From contig NZ_JAGSYI010000002.1 in the NCBI RefSeq assembly GCF_025685625.1, forward strand, positions 1,364,001-1,428,000: a stretch of 64,000 bases of DNA. The letters run 5' to 3'. The stretch's first letter is position 1. Each line of letters begins with the position of its first letter. The stretch comes from Acidicapsa acidisoli (GTDB taxonomy: Bacteria; Acidobacteriota; Terriglobia; Terriglobales; Acidobacteriaceae). The notes below the pieces were generated by a model. That model was not told where the DNA came from and searched no databases. It worked only from the letters and a program-made list of their open reading frames with translations. Made by a program: the position numbers and the translations under genes. This document shows, piece by piece, positions 29,359 to 39,028 of the stretch.

Positions 29359-29548
29359 GGCAGGGCGTCTCCTGCGGAGAAGTTTACACCGGAGTTGACG
29401 TCGCACAGTCGCATTGCCGGATTGCAAGAACGCATTCCGGCGATCGAGCATCAGTCCCAGGAACCTGGTGGACGAGAAAGATGGAACCAATTCGCGGGAT
29501 TTGCGTAGTGATGTGCAACAAGGGTTTATCGAGTGTTCAGGAGGACGC

Positions 29549-30310
29549 ATGGAACCTGTCATCGGTTTGGACTGCCCGCCTGCGATGGAACGCGCTTCCC
29601 TTTCGCCAACTGCCCTTATCTGGCAAGACATTCTCGCCCAGGCTATGACCGGCGAACTGATTGCCGCGATGAATTACACCTCGTTGTCGGAGATATGTGA
29701 CGATCCTGAAGAGATAGCCGAGGCGCTGGAACACGCGCAAGGGGAGCGTGGTCATGCTGCCGCCTTTGCCGCCGCGGGCCGCGGGATCGGAGTCGACGTA
29801 CCGAACAATGTCGACGCGAAGCACTGGAAGCGGCTGCGCGAAGCTTTTCTGCGCTGCATTGCAGATCGCGATTTTATCGGCTGCCTGATCGTGCAGGAGA
29901 TCATGCTGGAGTCCTTTGCTGTGGCAAGCTATGCGCGCGTGGGCCGAGTAGCGATGGGAAGTCTGGGCAAGACCTTTGCCGCGATTGCGGCCGAGGAAGA
30001 AGAGCACATCGACCATGCCCTGGAGATTCTCAGGCTGGAGCGGGCGCTGGACAGGAAGGGATTCGACGACAAGGTGCACCAGCTGCATCTGGAAGTGATG
30101 ACTACACTTGCGGAGATGATGGCGAGGGATTGCAGGACCGGGCACTGCGAAGTGTGTCATGGAAGCTGCGTGAAGCCATCGCTCTTTGAGGTGAGTCTAA
30201 GCGCGGTTGAGCTGCGCGGAGCGTCGCTGCAGCAGTATCTGAAGACGCTCGACATGCTGGGGCTGCCCGGGGAGGTGACGCTTCGATGGGTTGCTCAGTT
30301 GCCGGTGTAG
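29549..30310 (+). CDS. Aldehyde-deformylating oxygenase-like di-iron protein with extra Cys motif
   Basis: 253 residues; the ATG at 29549 has AGGAGG six bases upstream. It matches the ferritin-like fold of cyanobacterial aldehyde-deformylating oxygenase (ADO), which turns fatty aldehydes into alkanes plus formate. All six di-iron ligands align: E36 (TGELIAAMNY), E66 and H69 (QGERGHAAAF), E121 (VQEIMLESFAVASY), E150 and H153 (IAAEEEEHIDH). The C-terminus adds about 60 residues with C195-x4-C200-x2-C203-x3-C207, absent from standard ADO, which may bind metal or an Fe-S cluster. The next gene, overlapping by 25 bases, encodes an acyl-ACP reductase homologue, the pathway partner. Alkane synthesis is inferred from the pair; another oxidation is possible. 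Confidence 0.75.
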   Translation: MEPVIGLDCPPAMERASLSPTALIWQDILAQAMTGELIAAMNYTSLSEICDDPEEIAEALEHAQGERGHAAAFAAAGRGIGVDVPNNVDAKHWKRLREAFLRCIADRDFIGCLIVQEIMLESFAVASYARVGRVAMGSLGKTFAAIAAEEEEHIDHALEILRLERALDRKGFDDKVHQLHLEVMTTLAEMMARDCRTGHCEVCHGSCVKPSLFEVSLSAVELRGASLQQYLKTLDMLGLPGEVTLRWVAQLPV

Positions 30311-31428
30311 TCGCTCGCGAACGGGCTATCTCTGATGATCCTGAGGCCGTCGATTTTGCGCTGATTGGGCATCAGGAGAGTTGGAGAGCAGCCTCGGATG
30401 TGCTGGCCTTTTTGCGCGGCCCCGAGCGCACACCGCTGCCGGACGATGAGATTCGCGAGATTCTGCCGTGGATTCCGCCGCGGGCTGTTTGCCATGTCGA
30501 AGTCGGCTCTACCTGCTGCCTGGGCAACGGGATTATGCCGAAGGCTCATGTGCGCGGGCTCTATATCGACACTTTCATTCCTCCGGATCGTCTGGGCGCC
30601 GCGTACGTGCATGAGAATATTGCCCGTGTTCGAGGAGCGGCAGCGTATGCGATCCGGTCTGGTGCGAAGATCGTGAGTCTTGGTGGGTTCAGCTCCATTT
30701 TGATTGAGGGTAACTTCGACCGGCTTCCGGAATTGCGTGGGACGGTATTTACAACAGGCAATTCGCTGACGGTGGGCTTCATCGTTCAGGGCGTACGGAA
30801 GATGTGCGCACTGGAGGGCCGCGATCTTAGCGGGTCGACGCTGCTGATTGTGGGCGCGACGGGAGATGTTGGTTCAGGATGCGCGCGATGCCTGGCTCCG
30901 CTGGTGCGGCGAGTGCTGCTAAACGCACGGAACGCGGAGCGGCTGCGCAGGCTTGCTGCCGAGCTGGAGGCTGATGGCGTCGAGGTGGAATACGCAACAG
31001 ATCTGCAGTTGTTCTCACGAGAGGCGGACGTCGTGGTCTGCGCGGCTAGTCTGGCGTCTCCGTCACTGCTGCTGGACCGGATAGCACCTGGGGCGATTGT
31101 TTGCGATGCCGGGTATCCGAAGAATCTGGCCGCGAGCGCGCAGATGCCGGGGGTCAAGGTTTTCTTTGGGGGTTTGGGGCAGATTTCAGGGGGGATGAAC
31201 TTCGAGCCGGATTTTCGCGGGATTCTGAATCGGCATCCCTTTCCCGACGTGGTTCACGGATGCCTGCTCGAAGGGATGGCTCTGGCGCTGGAGGGCCGGT
31301 TTGAGCCCTTTTCGCAGGGTAGAGGGTTCATCACTCCGGAGCGGGTGACGGAGATTGAGATGATTTCTGCGCGGCACGGAATCCATCTTGCGCCGCTCTA
31401 CAATGCCGATGGTCCATTGGGTCGATAA
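30286..31428 (+). CDS. Long-chain acyl-[acyl-carrier-protein] reductase homologue (AAR)
   Basis: 380 residues. The ATG at 30286 lies inside the previous gene, with GGAGGTG nine bases upstream, so the two are translationally coupled. It aligns along its length with cyanobacterial AAR, which reduces fatty acyl-ACP to aldehyde with NADPH: VDFALIGHQESWRAASDVLA, VSLGGFSSILIEGNFDRLPE, VFTTGNSLTVGF, the Rossmann motif IVGATGDVGSGCARCLAP, IVCDAGYPKNLAASAQ and the C-terminal HGCLLEGMALALEGRFEPFS. C326 in that last segment corresponds to the catalytic Cys of the cyanobacterial enzyme, and the ending ISARHGIHLAPL also matches. It probably feeds the ADO-like protein. Such pairs are best known from cyanobacteria. 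Confidence 0.8.
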   Translation: MGCSVAGVVARERAISDDPEAVDFALIGHQESWRAASDVLAFLRGPERTPLPDDEIREILPWIPPRAVCHVEVGSTCCLGNGIMPKAHVRGLYIDTFIPPDRLGAAYVHENIARVRGAAAYAIRSGAKIVSLGGFSSILIEGNFDRLPELRGTVFTTGNSLTVGFIVQGVRKMCALEGRDLSGSTLLIVGATGDVGSGCARCLAPLVRRVLLNARNAERLRRLAAELEADGVEVEYATDLQLFSREADVVVCAASLASPSLLLDRIAPGAIVCDAGYPKNLAASAQMPGVKVFFGGLGQISGGMNFEPDFRGILNRHPFPDVVHGCLLEGMALALEGRFEPFSQGRGFITPERVTEIEMISARHGIHLAPLYNADGPLGR

Positions 31429-31444
31429 CTTCAAGAGAGCCGGG

Positions 31445-32176
31445 ATGCGCATTGCAATCGTCTCTGACATTCACGGCAACTCGACTGCTCTTGAGGCGGT
31501 GCTGGCGGATCTGAAGCTGACCGCGCCGGACGTGGTCTTTCACGGCGGCGATCTGGCCGATGCGGGATCAAGCCCTGCGGAGGTGGTGGATCGCGTTCGC
31601 GAGCTTGGCTGGCCGGGGGTTGTTGGCAATACCGACGAAATGCTCTTCCGGCCGGAGGCGCTGCGCGAGTTTGCGCGGAACTCTCCGGGGCTGCAAGGGA
31701 TGTGGGCTGTGATTGAGGAGATGGAGGCGGCAACCCGGGAACTGCTGGGAGAAGACAGAGTCGCCTGGCTCGCCAGCCTGCCGCGCAGCCAGTTCTATGG
31801 TCCGATGGCGCTGGTCCACGCCAGTCCGGAGAGTCTTTGGCGCGCGCCTTCGCCGGAAGCCAGCGACGCGGAGCTGGAGTCAGTTTACGGGGCGCTGGGC
31901 AAACCGGTCGCCGTCTACGGGCATATTCATCAGCCATATATTCGCGGGGTTTCCGGAAGGATAATTGCGAATACGGGCAGCGTGAGTCTGTCATACGACG
32001 GGGATTGCCGCGCTGCGTATCTTTTGCTGGATGAAAATGATTCAGTCGTCAATCCGACTATCCGGCGTGTGGAGTACGACCTTGAGACAGAGCTTCGGAG
32101 ACTGGCCGCGTGCGGGCTGCCGCATGTCGATTGGATTGCGAGGACGCTGAAGAGCGCTCGTCCGCAGATGCCATGA
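31445..32176 (+). CDS. YfcE-type metallophosphoesterase
   Basis: 243 residues from the ATG at 31445, with GAGAG seven bases upstream and 17 bases after the AAR stop, so it is the third gene of the same operon. Calcineurin-like motifs: RIAIVSDIHGNSTALEAVLA (DxH), VVFHGGDLADAG (GD), VVGNTDEML (GN-D), ALVHASP (H) and VAVYGHIHQPYIRGVSGRII (GHxH), followed by NTGSVSLSYDGD. These bind two metal ions. Substrates of this subfamily are small phosphodiesters or unknown. Its link to the reductase/oxygenase pair is positional only. It converges on the GlcNAc-kinase gene with a 10-base gap. Confidence 0.85.
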   Translation: MRIAIVSDIHGNSTALEAVLADLKLTAPDVVFHGGDLADAGSSPAEVVDRVRELGWPGVVGNTDEMLFRPEALREFARNSPGLQGMWAVIEEMEAATRELLGEDRVAWLASLPRSQFYGPMALVHASPESLWRAPSPEASDAELESVYGALGKPVAVYGHIHQPYIRGVSGRIIANTGSVSLSYDGDCRAAYLLLDENDSVVNPTIRRVEYDLETELRRLAACGLPHVDWIARTLKSARPQMP

Positions 32177-35493: not shown

Positions 35494-35664
35494 TTGTAAT
35501 AGGCGCTCTCATCCGATGAAGTGCGCACCCAAAATGCCCTTACATCTGGCCGCAGCCGAGTCGTGGCAATCGCGGCGGCGGAAAACGGGTATGCTATCGT
35601 TTCTGTAGAGCGGGCCATTGCAATGTTGGTCAGACGCTGGGGCCCCCGTGTTACCTCCCCAACT

Positions 35665-37476
35665 ATGAATCTTCATTCTTATTCTCTGGACGAACTTTTG
35701 TTGAAGCGGCGCGGCCTGCGTCGCAAACTTTCTGCGCTTGACGGCTTGAAAGAGATTCGCATTGCGGTTCTGGGTGGCACAACCACCAATGAACTTGTGG
35801 ATCTGCTTGAGATTCTGCTGTTAAGCAGTGGCTTTCGGCCAACCTTCCACCAATCGGAGTATGGCCGGTACTACGAAGATGCGGTGCTCGAACCTGAGTC
35901 GATTGCCGAGTTCAAGCCGGAAATTGTATATGTGCACACCTGCTCTTTGAATATTCAGAGCTTTCCTCCGGTGTCGTGCAGCGAAGAGGCTCTTCCTGGA
36001 TTTGTTGACGCGGAGATGAATCGCTTTCGCGCCATCTGGCGCTCGCTGGAGGCGAATGTCGGTTGCCAGATCATCCAGAATAATTTCGAACTGCCCGCCT
36101 CGGCGCTCCTTGGCAATCTTGATGCGGTCAGTCCAGGCGGAGCTTCGCGCTTTATCACAGAATTGAATCGCGCCATTGCAGCGGAAGCCGCTGCGAATCC
36201 GAGACTGTTGATGCAGGACCTGAACGCGATTGCAGCACGTGTCGGCATGAATCAATGGTTCGATCCGGAGCGCTGGTTCAGTTATAAGGTTGCGAATTCC
36301 GTGGAAGGCTCGTTTGCGATTGCGACTTCGCTGAATTCAATGATTCAGGCCATCTATGGGCGCAGCCGTAAAGTGCTGGTGCTGGATCTCGATAACACGC
36401 TGTGGGGCGGTGTGATTGGCGACGATGGAGCGGACAAGATTGTCCTTGGGCGCGAGACACCAGTTGCCGAAGCTTACACGGCATTTCAGGAATACTGCCT
36501 GCGCCTGCGCGAGCGCGGCATATTACTTGCTGTGTGCTCCAAGAACAATGACGATATTGCGCGATCGGGCTTTGCGCATCCGGATTCGGTGCTTAAGCTC
36601 GAACATTTCTCGGCGTTCAAGGCCAACTGGGAGCCGAAGCACGAGAACATCCTTGAGATAGCGCGCGAGTTGAATCTCGGCGTGGATAGCTTTGTCTTTG
36701 TGGACGATAACCCTGCCGAGCGGGCGATTGTTGAGGCACAGATTCCGGGCATTGCGGTGCCCGAGGTTGGCAGTGATGTGGCAAAATATGCCGCGATTCT
36801 CGATGCCGGCCGCTACTTCGAACCTGTTTCGCTGGGCAAGGAAGATCTTGTTCGCGCGAAGTTATACGAAGAAAACGCGCAGCGCGCGCAGCTGGAGCAG
36901 AAGTTTGCCAATTACGGTGAGTATCTGGATTCGCTGGAGATGACGGCCGAGATCGACGTCTTCAATGCGACTTACATGGAGCGCATCGCGCAACTTACCA
37001 ATAAGACCAATCAGTTCAACCTCACAACTCGCCGCTACACGCTGGCTGAGATCGAGTCCACTGTGCCGGATGGCCACCATATCGGCATCTACGGCAAGCT
37101 GACGGATCGCTTCGGAGATAACGGGCTGATTTCGATTGTACTGGGCCGTATCGATGCGGACGATGCTTCGACTCTGCATCTCGATCTTTGGCTGATGAGC
37201 TGCCGCGTTCTCAAGCGAGAGATGGAGATCGCGATGCTCGACGGCATCGCGGAGCGCGCTCGCGATCAAGGCATCGTCCGCCTGCTTGGAACTTATATTC
37301 CGACTGCGAAAAACGGTATGGTCAAGGACCACTATGAGAAGCTGGGCTTCTCGCCCGTTGCATCGAATGATACGGCGCAGGACGGGCACAACGATTCGAC
37401 GACATGGTCGCTCGATATAACAAACTACCAACCACGCAGCCGCCATATCCGAATTGTGGAGAGAGTCAATGCCTGA
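35665..37476 (+). CDS. FkbH-like HAD-superfamily protein
   Basis: 603 residues if translation starts at 35665 (MNLHSYSLDELLLKRRGLRR); the frame is open 48 codons further and no ribosome site settles the start. Residues 1-270 contain an SGNH-like region (IRIAVLGGTTTNELVDLLEI ... FWFDPERWF-type end). Residues about 285-430 are the HAD core: VLVLDLDNTLWGGVIGDDGA with the Asp nucleophile, LLAVCSKNN and FVFVDDNPAERAIVEAQ. The C-terminal third looks like a GNAT fold (FGDNGLISIVLGRIDA, LMSCRVLKREMEIAMLDGIA). FkbH proteins load a glyceryl unit, from 1,3-bisphosphoglycerate, onto an acyl carrier protein. The next gene, overlapping by eight bases, encodes such a carrier. Confidence 0.85.
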   Translation: MNLHSYSLDELLLKRRGLRRKLSALDGLKEIRIAVLGGTTTNELVDLLEILLLSSGFRPTFHQSEYGRYYEDAVLEPESIAEFKPEIVYVHTCSLNIQSFPPVSCSEEALPGFVDAEMNRFRAIWRSLEANVGCQIIQNNFELPASALLGNLDAVSPGGASRFITELNRAIAAEAAANPRLLMQDLNAIAARVGMNQWFDPERWFSYKVANSVEGSFAIATSLNSMIQAIYGRSRKVLVLDLDNTLWGGVIGDDGADKIVLGRETPVAEAYTAFQEYCLRLRERGILLAVCSKNNDDIARSGFAHPDSVLKLEHFSAFKANWEPKHENILEIARELNLGVDSFVFVDDNPAERAIVEAQIPGIAVPEVGSDVAKYAAILDAGRYFEPVSLGKEDLVRAKLYEENAQRAQLEQKFANYGEYLDSLEMTAEIDVFNATYMERIAQLTNKTNQFNLTTRRYTLAEIESTVPDGHHIGIYGKLTDRFGDNGLISIVLGRIDADDASTLHLDLWLMSCRVLKREMEIAMLDGIAERARDQGIVRLLGTYIPTAKNGMVKDHYEKLGFSPVASNDTAQDGHNDSTTWSLDITNYQPRSRHIRIVERVNA

Positions 37477-37804: not shown

Positions 37805-39028
37805 ATGATAGTTCAATTCCAATTAGCCGGGGTCAGGTTGAAGAGGTTTTCGCAATTAGATGGAATCCGCGGACTCGCTGTGGCATCAGTTGTTGCCTGC
37901 CACCTTGTTCAGCTCCTCCCCATCGGGATCGGCAGGAATCTGCTCGTAAGCGCAGTGTATCGCCTCTTGATCCCGGGTTGGCTGGGCGTCGATGTCTTCT
38001 TCGTATTGTCGGGCTTTCTAATCACAGGCATCATCCTCAAGGAGCGCGCTCAGCCTGATTTCTGGAGCAGTTTTTATCTCCGCCGAGGATTTCGGATTCT
38101 TCCGGCATTTTTTGTTGTCTTCACTTTGACACTAGTTGCAGCTCACTTCTTCCTTTCCGCGATTCATTTATCGACAATCTATGTGCTGATGGCTACATTC
38201 TTTCTTGCCAATTGGGCACCCAATCAGATGCCATTTCTGATCCATATCTGGTCGCTGGCGGTTGAAGAACAGTTCTATTTTTTGTGGCCACAGGCTTGCA
38301 CGCGTTTGAACAACGGCAAGATCTTCAAGCTTGCCCTGGCGTTGGCTTCATGCAGTTTATTGCTTCGCATCTGCTTGGCTTTTGCCCACGTCAATTCATA
38401 CACTCTTTACGAAATCACGCCCACTCGGATCGATGGAATCTCGCTTGGTTCGGCGCTTGCTGCTGGAATTACGTTACCGCGCGTTCACCTCTTCCTCACG
38501 CGCTGGTGGCGTCGCATTGCGGTGATTGCAGCGGTTGCACTCCCGGTAGTCTTCGCCCTCCTCGGTGGAAGGCTGAACGGATTTGAAGCAAAGAGCCAAA
38601 TGCTCGCAATTCCGCCGATGATCATTCTCACTGCGATGCTCGTCTTCGGGGCAGTGGAATCGGCGCTTCCCCCAGCGATTGGGAGACTCTTCGATAACCG
38701 AGTGATTACTTACCTGGGGAGGCGGAGTTATGGACTCTATCTCATTCATGAGGCGATTAGAGGGGGCATCGATGAGAGCCGCAGCCATGGCATGCTTGCT
38801 GCGCTGCCGTCTGGCGTAGGCGTCAACGCAATGCTGGTTCTTTTTGTTCTCGTGGCATCGCTGATCTTGACGGAAATCTCGTGGCGCCTGATTGAATCTC
38901 CGGCGCAGACTTTGAGGCTCAGGCTTATGCGCAACAAAGAAGACAGCACTCGAGTCCTCCGTCCTTCAGAAGAATTGGAGATCGCCCAGTTAGTGGAAGA
39001 GAACCGTTTGCGCACCCCGACCCAATAG
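37805..39028 (+). CDS. Acyltransferase-3 (OafA-type) membrane protein
   Basis: 407 residues. The acyltransferase-3 signature RFSQLDGIRGLAVASVVACH contains the helix-1 motif; the catalytic-type His and Arg residues follow in FLITGIILKER and FWSSFYLRRGFRILPAFFVV. Ten hydrophobic segments run through to residue 380 (VEEQFYFLWPQACTRLN is the usual loop, AYLGRRSYGLYLIHEAIRG-like helix near 300). The family acetylates or acylates cell-surface polysaccharide or lipid. No clear ribosome site precedes the ATG at 37805, so the start could be a few codons later. It lies 93 bases after the ACP gene and probably uses its acyl-ACP. Confidence 0.85.
   Translation: MIVQFQLAGVRLKRFSQLDGIRGLAVASVVACHLVQLLPIGIGRNLLVSAVYRLLIPGWLGVDVFFVLSGFLITGIILKERAQPDFWSSFYLRRGFRILPAFFVVFTLTLVAAHFFLSAIHLSTIYVLMATFFLANWAPNQMPFLIHIWSLAVEEQFYFLWPQACTRLNNGKIFKLALALASCSLLLRICLAFAHVNSYTLYEITPTRIDGISLGSALAAGITLPRVHLFLTRWWRRIAVIAAVALPVVFALLGGRLNGFEAKSQMLAIPPMIILTAMLVFGAVESALPPAIGRLFDNRVITYLGRRSYGLYLIHEAIRGGIDESRSHGMLAALPSGVGVNAMLVLFVLVASLILTEISWRLIESPAQTLRLRLMRNKEDSTRVLRPSEELEIAQLVEENRLRTPTQ

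Follow-up and report, generated by a model that had tools for sequence, protein, structure and literature searches.

The subject of this analysis is a pair of overlapping genes in a 64,000-nucleotide stretch of the Acidicapsa acidisoli genome (contig NZ_JAGSYI010000002.1, positions 1,364,001 to 1,428,000; hereafter the window), whose products resemble the two enzymes of cyanobacterial alkane synthesis, aldehyde-deformylating oxygenase (ADO) and acyl-acyl carrier protein (acyl-ACP) reductase (AAR). Judged by sequence profiles and predicted folds, the ADO-like and AAR-like proteins are truly, though distantly, homologous to the cyanobacterial enzymes, and the window genes were confirmed as a homologous ADO/AAR pair. 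The pair probably works like cyanobacterial ADO and AAR, and hydrocarbon production by it is plausible. On balance, we lean towards a fatty-chain pathway of two enzymes and two steps that is homologous to the cyanobacterial pathway but has diverged in Acidobacteria. The ADO step is described as unique to cyanobacteria in the accessible text of PMC3903477, and no acidobacterial ADO or AAR was found in the literature titles and abstracts searched, a scope outside which subscription papers and preprints fell. Thus, the acidobacterial pair is of interest.

In the case of the ADO-like protein, the Pfam family PF11266 (Ald_deCOase) was matched with 47.9 bits (E 1.9e-12), passing the gathering score of 28. 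The best NCBIfam match was TIGR04059 with 51 bits, covering positions 16–148 of 220 only. A PDB sequence search returned 22 matches, the best 20 of which were all ADO. Moreover, a profile built from 34 ADO-like rows (among them the window; L042 and L045 are incomplete at the N-terminus) detected 20 ADO chains at E 4.8e-14 to 1.3e-10, followed at E 0.0017 by a DPS-like protein. The predicted fold was that of ADO, a solved ADO being its best match. Identity with S. elongatus ADO (SeADO) was 40 of 137 aligned residues (29%), a fragment comparison. The original prediction that the first protein groups with ADO and not with another ferritin-like family was thus upheld by profile, PDB and fold comparisons.

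The cyanobacterial reference residues were taken from one S. elongatus sequence per protein and from papers, and the residue roles in ADO and AAR are those given in the accessible parts of PMC7089970, PMC5356278, PMC9743570 and PMC4383598. The six di-iron ligands named in the prediction (E36, E66, H69, E121, E150 and H153) aligned with the six SeADO ligands and were invariant in all 34 rows. In ADO, the iron ligands are held in two ExnExxH motifs (PMC9743570). Equivalents of Gln110, Tyr122 and N. punctiforme (Np) Cys107 were likewise found in 34/34 rows, and that of Tyr39 in 33/34.

For the AAR-like protein, TIGR04058 was by far the best NCBIfam match (137.2 bits, E 8.1e-40), followed by PigE (82.8 bits), and AAR was recovered in the PDB search at E 1.1e-30. 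Identity with S. elongatus AAR (SeAAR) amounted to 112/324 residues (34.6%), and the predicted fold was that of AAR, with the solved AAR as its best match. The protein therefore groups with AAR and not with general short-chain reductases, as predicted, and the GATGDVGSG loop, the FTTGN block (residues 155–159) and the catalytic C326, which aligned with SeAAR C294, were found as described. Across the 29 rows of the AAR-like alignment, C326, R215, R219, R346 and Y277 (SeAAR C294, R189, R193, R314 and Y247) were invariant, as were the glycines of the GATGDxG loop; the roles of the catalytic Cys, the NADPH residues and Tyr247 are given in PMC7089970. Because all checked catalytic and cofactor residues were kept, the AAR-like protein very probably converts an acyl thioester to an aldehyde. 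In a nine-row AAR tree, SeAAR and six acidobacterial rows were separated (93/97) from two aminotransferase-fusion domains, although the branches were very long, the bootstrap was still unsettled, and the grouping was given no weight.

Two AAR-like genes of unusual form were also observed. On a contig shared with L028, the gene at L013 (9917–11095) encodes, immediately ahead of the FTTGN block, an insertion of approximately 30 residues in which short words of Leu, Lys and Asp recur. At L023 (980–4675), the AAR-like frame stops after query residue 263 and continues into an open frame of >1200 amino acids; this contig is perhaps chimeric.

The two genes occurred together. Among 100 genomes of relatives, the own genome included, both were present in the same 6, and in a phylum-wide draw the ADO-like gene was found in 3/396 genomes and the AAR-like gene, at E < 1e-200, in the same 3. 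The co-occurrence of both genes in a genome, known from the cyanobacterial AAR-ADO pathway, is thus also seen in Acidobacteria. In a scan of named genomes with two short peptide patterns taken from close relatives, beyond which more distant non-cyanobacterial pairs may exist, the AAR-like gene lay directly downstream of the ADO-like gene in 30/30 loci, with a contig-end cut or an interruption in some. As no case of the two genes being separated was found, the ADO-like protein probably takes the aldehyde from the AAR-like protein as its substrate. The records of 29 of the 30 loci were assigned to acidobacterial groups and that of one, a 4.3-kb contig (L026), to Gammaproteobacteria. Among 398 genomes sampled from the phylum to which the latter metagenome-assembled genome (MAG) belongs, the pair was found only in that MAG; therefore, L026 is likely a mis-binned contig.

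The pair is under purifying selection: dN/dS was 0.09–0.12 in 6/9 comparisons, those with computable dS. ADO and AAR distances were correlated with r 0.90 across 28 loci (window included), while the maximum of 2000 permutations was 0.54. The pair is also patchy in Acidobacteriota and discordant with RecA. In the same-genus genome G010, where it lies on a 5490-base contig, RecA was 93.7% identical to that of the own genome and the ADO-like protein 71.8% identical to the window protein, whereas in five more distant genomes the corresponding values were 69–72% and 72–80% (G050, without a RecA match, stood outside this comparison). This reversal suggests spread by horizontal transfer, or an old duplication with loss.

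In the proposed mechanism, the acyl group of acyl-ACP or acyl-CoA would be loaded on C326 of the AAR-like protein as a thioester, NADPH would be held by the GATGDVG loop, R215, R219 and R346, and reduction would free a fatty aldehyde; this first step is strongly indicated by the residues kept. In the second step, of which we are less sure, the aldehyde would pass to the ADO-like protein, where the di-iron centre would activate O2 and the aldehyde carbon would leave as formate, giving a hydrocarbon one carbon shorter.

Several observations weigh against a simple equivalence with the cyanobacterial enzymes. Both proteins fell far under the equivalog cut-offs, with 51 vs 222.65 bits for TIGR04059 and 137.2 vs 449.7 bits for TIGR04058; because both cut-offs were missed, the pair was not classed as ADO/AAR equivalogs. 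As controls, S. elongatus gave a TIGR04059 score above the cut-off, and Caulobacter vibrioides a weak match (E up to 0.01) under it. The C-terminal third of the ADO-like protein alone had a best PDB sequence match of only E 0.24. Residues that matter in cyanobacterial ADO were replaced as well. The position of Np Cys71, which according to the accessible text of PMC4383598 is kept in 133 AD sequences and whose mutant has approximately a tenth of the activity, was Glu in 31/34 rows and Ala in 3/34 (Ala76 in the window). The position of S. elongatus Arg62, important in cyanobacterial ADO (PMC5356278), was Gly in 32/34 rows, and that of Asp143 was Glu in 31/34 and Asp in 3/34. Moreover, most ADO-docking residues of cyanobacterial AAR were not retained: R73 and R79 were lost, the R118 position varied (Arg in 6/29 rows), and the sole docking residue kept was at the K80 position, which was Arg in 28/29 rows.

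Other positions differed as well. SeADO Gln49, Ser111 and Phe150 correspond to Glu55, Glu117 and His156, which were invariant in all 34 rows and may form a reorganised polar network close to the irons. Because the pocket is changed where cyanobacterial ADO is sensitive, the product of the ADO-like protein may differ. Accordingly, an alternative has to be weighed in which the AAR-like protein makes an aldehyde and the ADO-like protein performs another di-iron oxidation on the aldehyde or a derivative of it, the two being part of a pathway to a lipid-like natural product. Such an oxidation could be a hydroxylation, a conversion to the acid, or an N-oxygenation like that of the azoxy synthase VlmB. 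VlmB, R2-like oxidases and other ferritin-like families ranked under ADO in every sequence and fold list, and this lower rank may still be compatible with related chemistry. We regard this alternative as a real possibility, although not the one we would expect.

A further departure from cyanobacterial ADO is an inserted loop that contains three invariant Cys residues. Predicted helices 169–192 and 209–215 flank this loop, which itself was modelled with low confidence. C200, C203 and C207 were present in 34/34 rows with CxxCx3C spacing (x4 in one row, L052), and C195 was Cys in 29/34 and Asp in 5/34. Since the sole Cys residues of N. punctiforme ADO are 71, 107 and 117, as stated in the accessible part of PMC4383598, that protein is without a CxxCx3-4C motif. 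From the last iron ligand to the end of the structural alignment, the ADO-like protein has 99 residues vs 81 in SeADO; with approximately 18 extra residues, an insertion would lie between the helices that correspond, by order, to H6 and H7. In cyanobacterial ADO, H6–H8 form the substrate entrance and the AAR-binding residues are on H7 (PMC9743570). Our hypothesis is that the loop is a metal site (Fe-S or Zn), which could serve electron delivery or partner docking.

A metal site in this loop would also suit a reading in which the ADO-like protein handles iron or redox equivalents as a rubrerythrin-, DPS- or encapsulin-cargo-like ferritin, and the AAR-like protein alone makes aldehydes or alcohols. 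Rubrerythrin was the next Pfam match after PF11266 (28.6 bits vs a cut-off of 22.8), EncB-type cargo proteins appeared at E 0.0012, under the cut-off, and DPS-like or bacterioferritin-related chains at E 0.0017–0.0026. However, all 20 ADO chains were matched by the same profile at E 1.3e-10 or better, the whole ADO fold was predicted, including the part bordering the substrate entrance, and the strict pairing with the AAR-like gene would be left without explanation. This reading is therefore very improbable.

The original prediction had further counted a metallophosphoesterase, encoded on the + strand after the AAR-like gene, as a coupled third member. The gene does lie close by on the same strand, but its probable start, ATG 31445 (MRIAIVSDIHGN), is 17 nt past the AAR-like stop, and an overlap with the AAR-like gene is thus not required. 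Moreover, a metallophosphoesterase adjoined the pair at 0/34 other loci, and among 41 genomes a homologue was found in 4, namely the own genome and three without the pair, while the pair-bearing G010 had none. A third, coupled pathway enzyme is hardly credible on these counts, and the candidate was rejected.

Compared with known systems, the acidobacterial proteins thus differ from cyanobacterial ADO (PF11266, TIGR04059) in the replacement of Cys71, Arg62, Asp143, Gln49 and Phe150 and in the Cys loop, and from cyanobacterial AAR (TIGR04058) in the docking residues. PigE- and TAD-type AAR-like domains occur within large multidomain natural-product proteins, whereas the acidobacterial AAR-like protein stands alone and has the higher AAR score. 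Another non-cyanobacterial ferritin-like protein, from Kitasatospora setae, is deposited as PDB 6d9f, in the title of which ADO activity is claimed ('Protein 60 with aldehyde deformylating oxidase activity'). In a deep-sea MAG survey that included ADO among the genes sought, the accessible text reports only ole genes (PMC13170169).

With a paired homologue that is under selection and apparently mobile, a soil phylum would become a non-photosynthetic source of biological hydrocarbons or aldehydes. The acidobacterial pair would also show, as a natural experiment, which ADO features are required. Turnover by cyanobacterial ADO is very slow, with kcat < 1 per minute (PMC5356278), and ferredoxin is the electron source of the enzyme (PMC9743570). 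A relative whose pocket is changed and which has an additional conserved Cys site would offer a handle on both the slowness and the electron supply. The widest picture, in which soil Acidobacteria are an unrecognised source of long-chain hydrocarbons, a divergent ADO with an Fe-S Cys loop next to the substrate entrance contains a built-in electron relay, a dedicated GntR-ABC gene set provides export or sensing, and a second operon type diverts the product to a modified lipid, is unlikely as a whole.

The coordinates of the pair are collected in Table 1. Two overlapping genes had been predicted, and both open reading frames (ORFs) were recovered at their coordinates, with an overlap of 25 nt. 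The RNA structure at this overlap was ordinary (z -0.66). The promoter and terminator scan yielded a single promoter-like and a single terminator-like match; both lay on the minus strand, and neither exceeded the range of shuffles. The own genome (7.1 Mb) contained one ADO-like match at E <= 0.001.

Table 1. Positions of the ADO-like and AAR-like genes and of their main elements in the window
Feature	Position	Strand	Basis
ADO-like ferritin-fold di-iron protein, 253 aa	29549..30310	+	start ATG 29549, stop ends 30310; PF11266, TIGR04059, PDB matches, predicted fold
Putative AAR-like NADPH-dependent acyl-thioester reductase, 380 aa	30286..31428	+	
GGAGG, likely ribosome-binding site of the ADO-like gene	29540..29544	+	read from sequence
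First iron motif, E36-x29-E66-x2-H69	29654..29755	+	aligned with SeADO E32, E60, H63
Second iron motif, E121-x28-E150-x2-H153	29909..30007	+	aligned with SeADO E115, E144, H147
Codons of Glu55, Glu117 and His156, ADO-like	29711-29713, 29897-29899, 30014-30016	+	alignment, 34/34 rows
Cys loop, residues 195-207 (C195, C200-x2-C203-x3-C207)	30131..30169	+	alignment; low-confidence loop in prediction
Dinucleotide-binding loop GATGDVGSG (190-198), AAR-like	30853..30879	+	aligned with SeAAR GATGDIG 162-168
Catalytic Cys codon, C326 (SeAAR C294), AAR-like	31261..31263	+	29/29 rows

The genes around the pair were compared at 34 loci besides the window, not all of which are independent genomes. A complete colinear set of a GntR regulator, an ABC ATPase and a permease was found beside the pair at 20/34 loci, lying downstream of it in L048 and L051. 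At 4/34 loci (L025, L032, L037 and L040), only a permease was in view. The permease assignment was weak (ABC-2 type, E 0.0069). The transporter adjoining the pair, together with the GntR-type regulator, suggests that the product is secreted or membrane-active. Such GntR-ABC cassettes are frequently linked to envelope stress.

A second operon type was observed at 4/34 loci: L014, L044 and L046 carried a desaturase, a DUF3419 protein and a GNAT-like match, and L047, where the contig ends soon after the AAR-like gene, a desaturase alone. DUF3419 proteins resemble the aminocarboxypropyl transferases that act in betaine-lipid synthesis. For this operon type, PDB searches with one DUF3419 protein and one desaturase gave no matches at E 0.01. 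The MAG G485 contained two copies of the pair, one (L025) with an ABC-type permease and one (L046) with the desaturase and DUF3419 genes. Neither gene set was found at 6/34 loci (L023, L024, L042, L043, L049 and L050). The contigs of L023, L042 and L049 start at or just before the ADO-like gene, and L050 is probably the other half of a split locus in the genome of L014. L024 and L043 were thus the sole loci with flanks yet without the GntR-ABC or desaturase/DUF3419 genes. The window pair itself had neither set adjoining, and a search of the own genome for an ABC ATPase homologue at the strict limit of E 1e-40 was empty, an outcome that by itself carries no weight. Genes for the membrane proteins DUF4386 and DUF2306 were seen near the pair in 13/36 and 7/36 clustered loci (window included), respectively, for example L010 and L013; these are perhaps parts of a moving island.

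Weaker relatives of the AAR-like protein were also seen elsewhere. In plasmid records, ADO-like matches were none, and three records had weak AAR-type matches, two to annotated aminotransferase proteins and the third to an unannotated one that appears to be an ACP-aminotransferase-AAR fusion. On the Paraburkholderia phymatum plasmid pBPHY01 (L056, 3499–6441), a 980-aa chain appeared by eye to combine ACP, aminotransferase and AAR-type domains, and its gene is followed by an AMP-ligase-like gene. Viral contigs gave 37 pattern matches, with no relatives among them. In 11 more of the 396 acidobacterial genomes, weaker AAR-type matches were found (best E 4.8e-35 to 3.7e-14); their open frames were 397–1507 aa long, and an ADO-like match was absent from these genomes. 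In one of them, a 745-aa protein at L079 (499–2736, minus strand), the AAR-type domain is C-terminal and contains TSGN, GATGSIG and, at the catalytic position, a Cys.

Further downstream in the window, a 651-aa ORF at 35521–37476 appeared by eye to be FkbH-type HAD-like, and it is followed by an acyltransferase-like ORF at 37805–39028.

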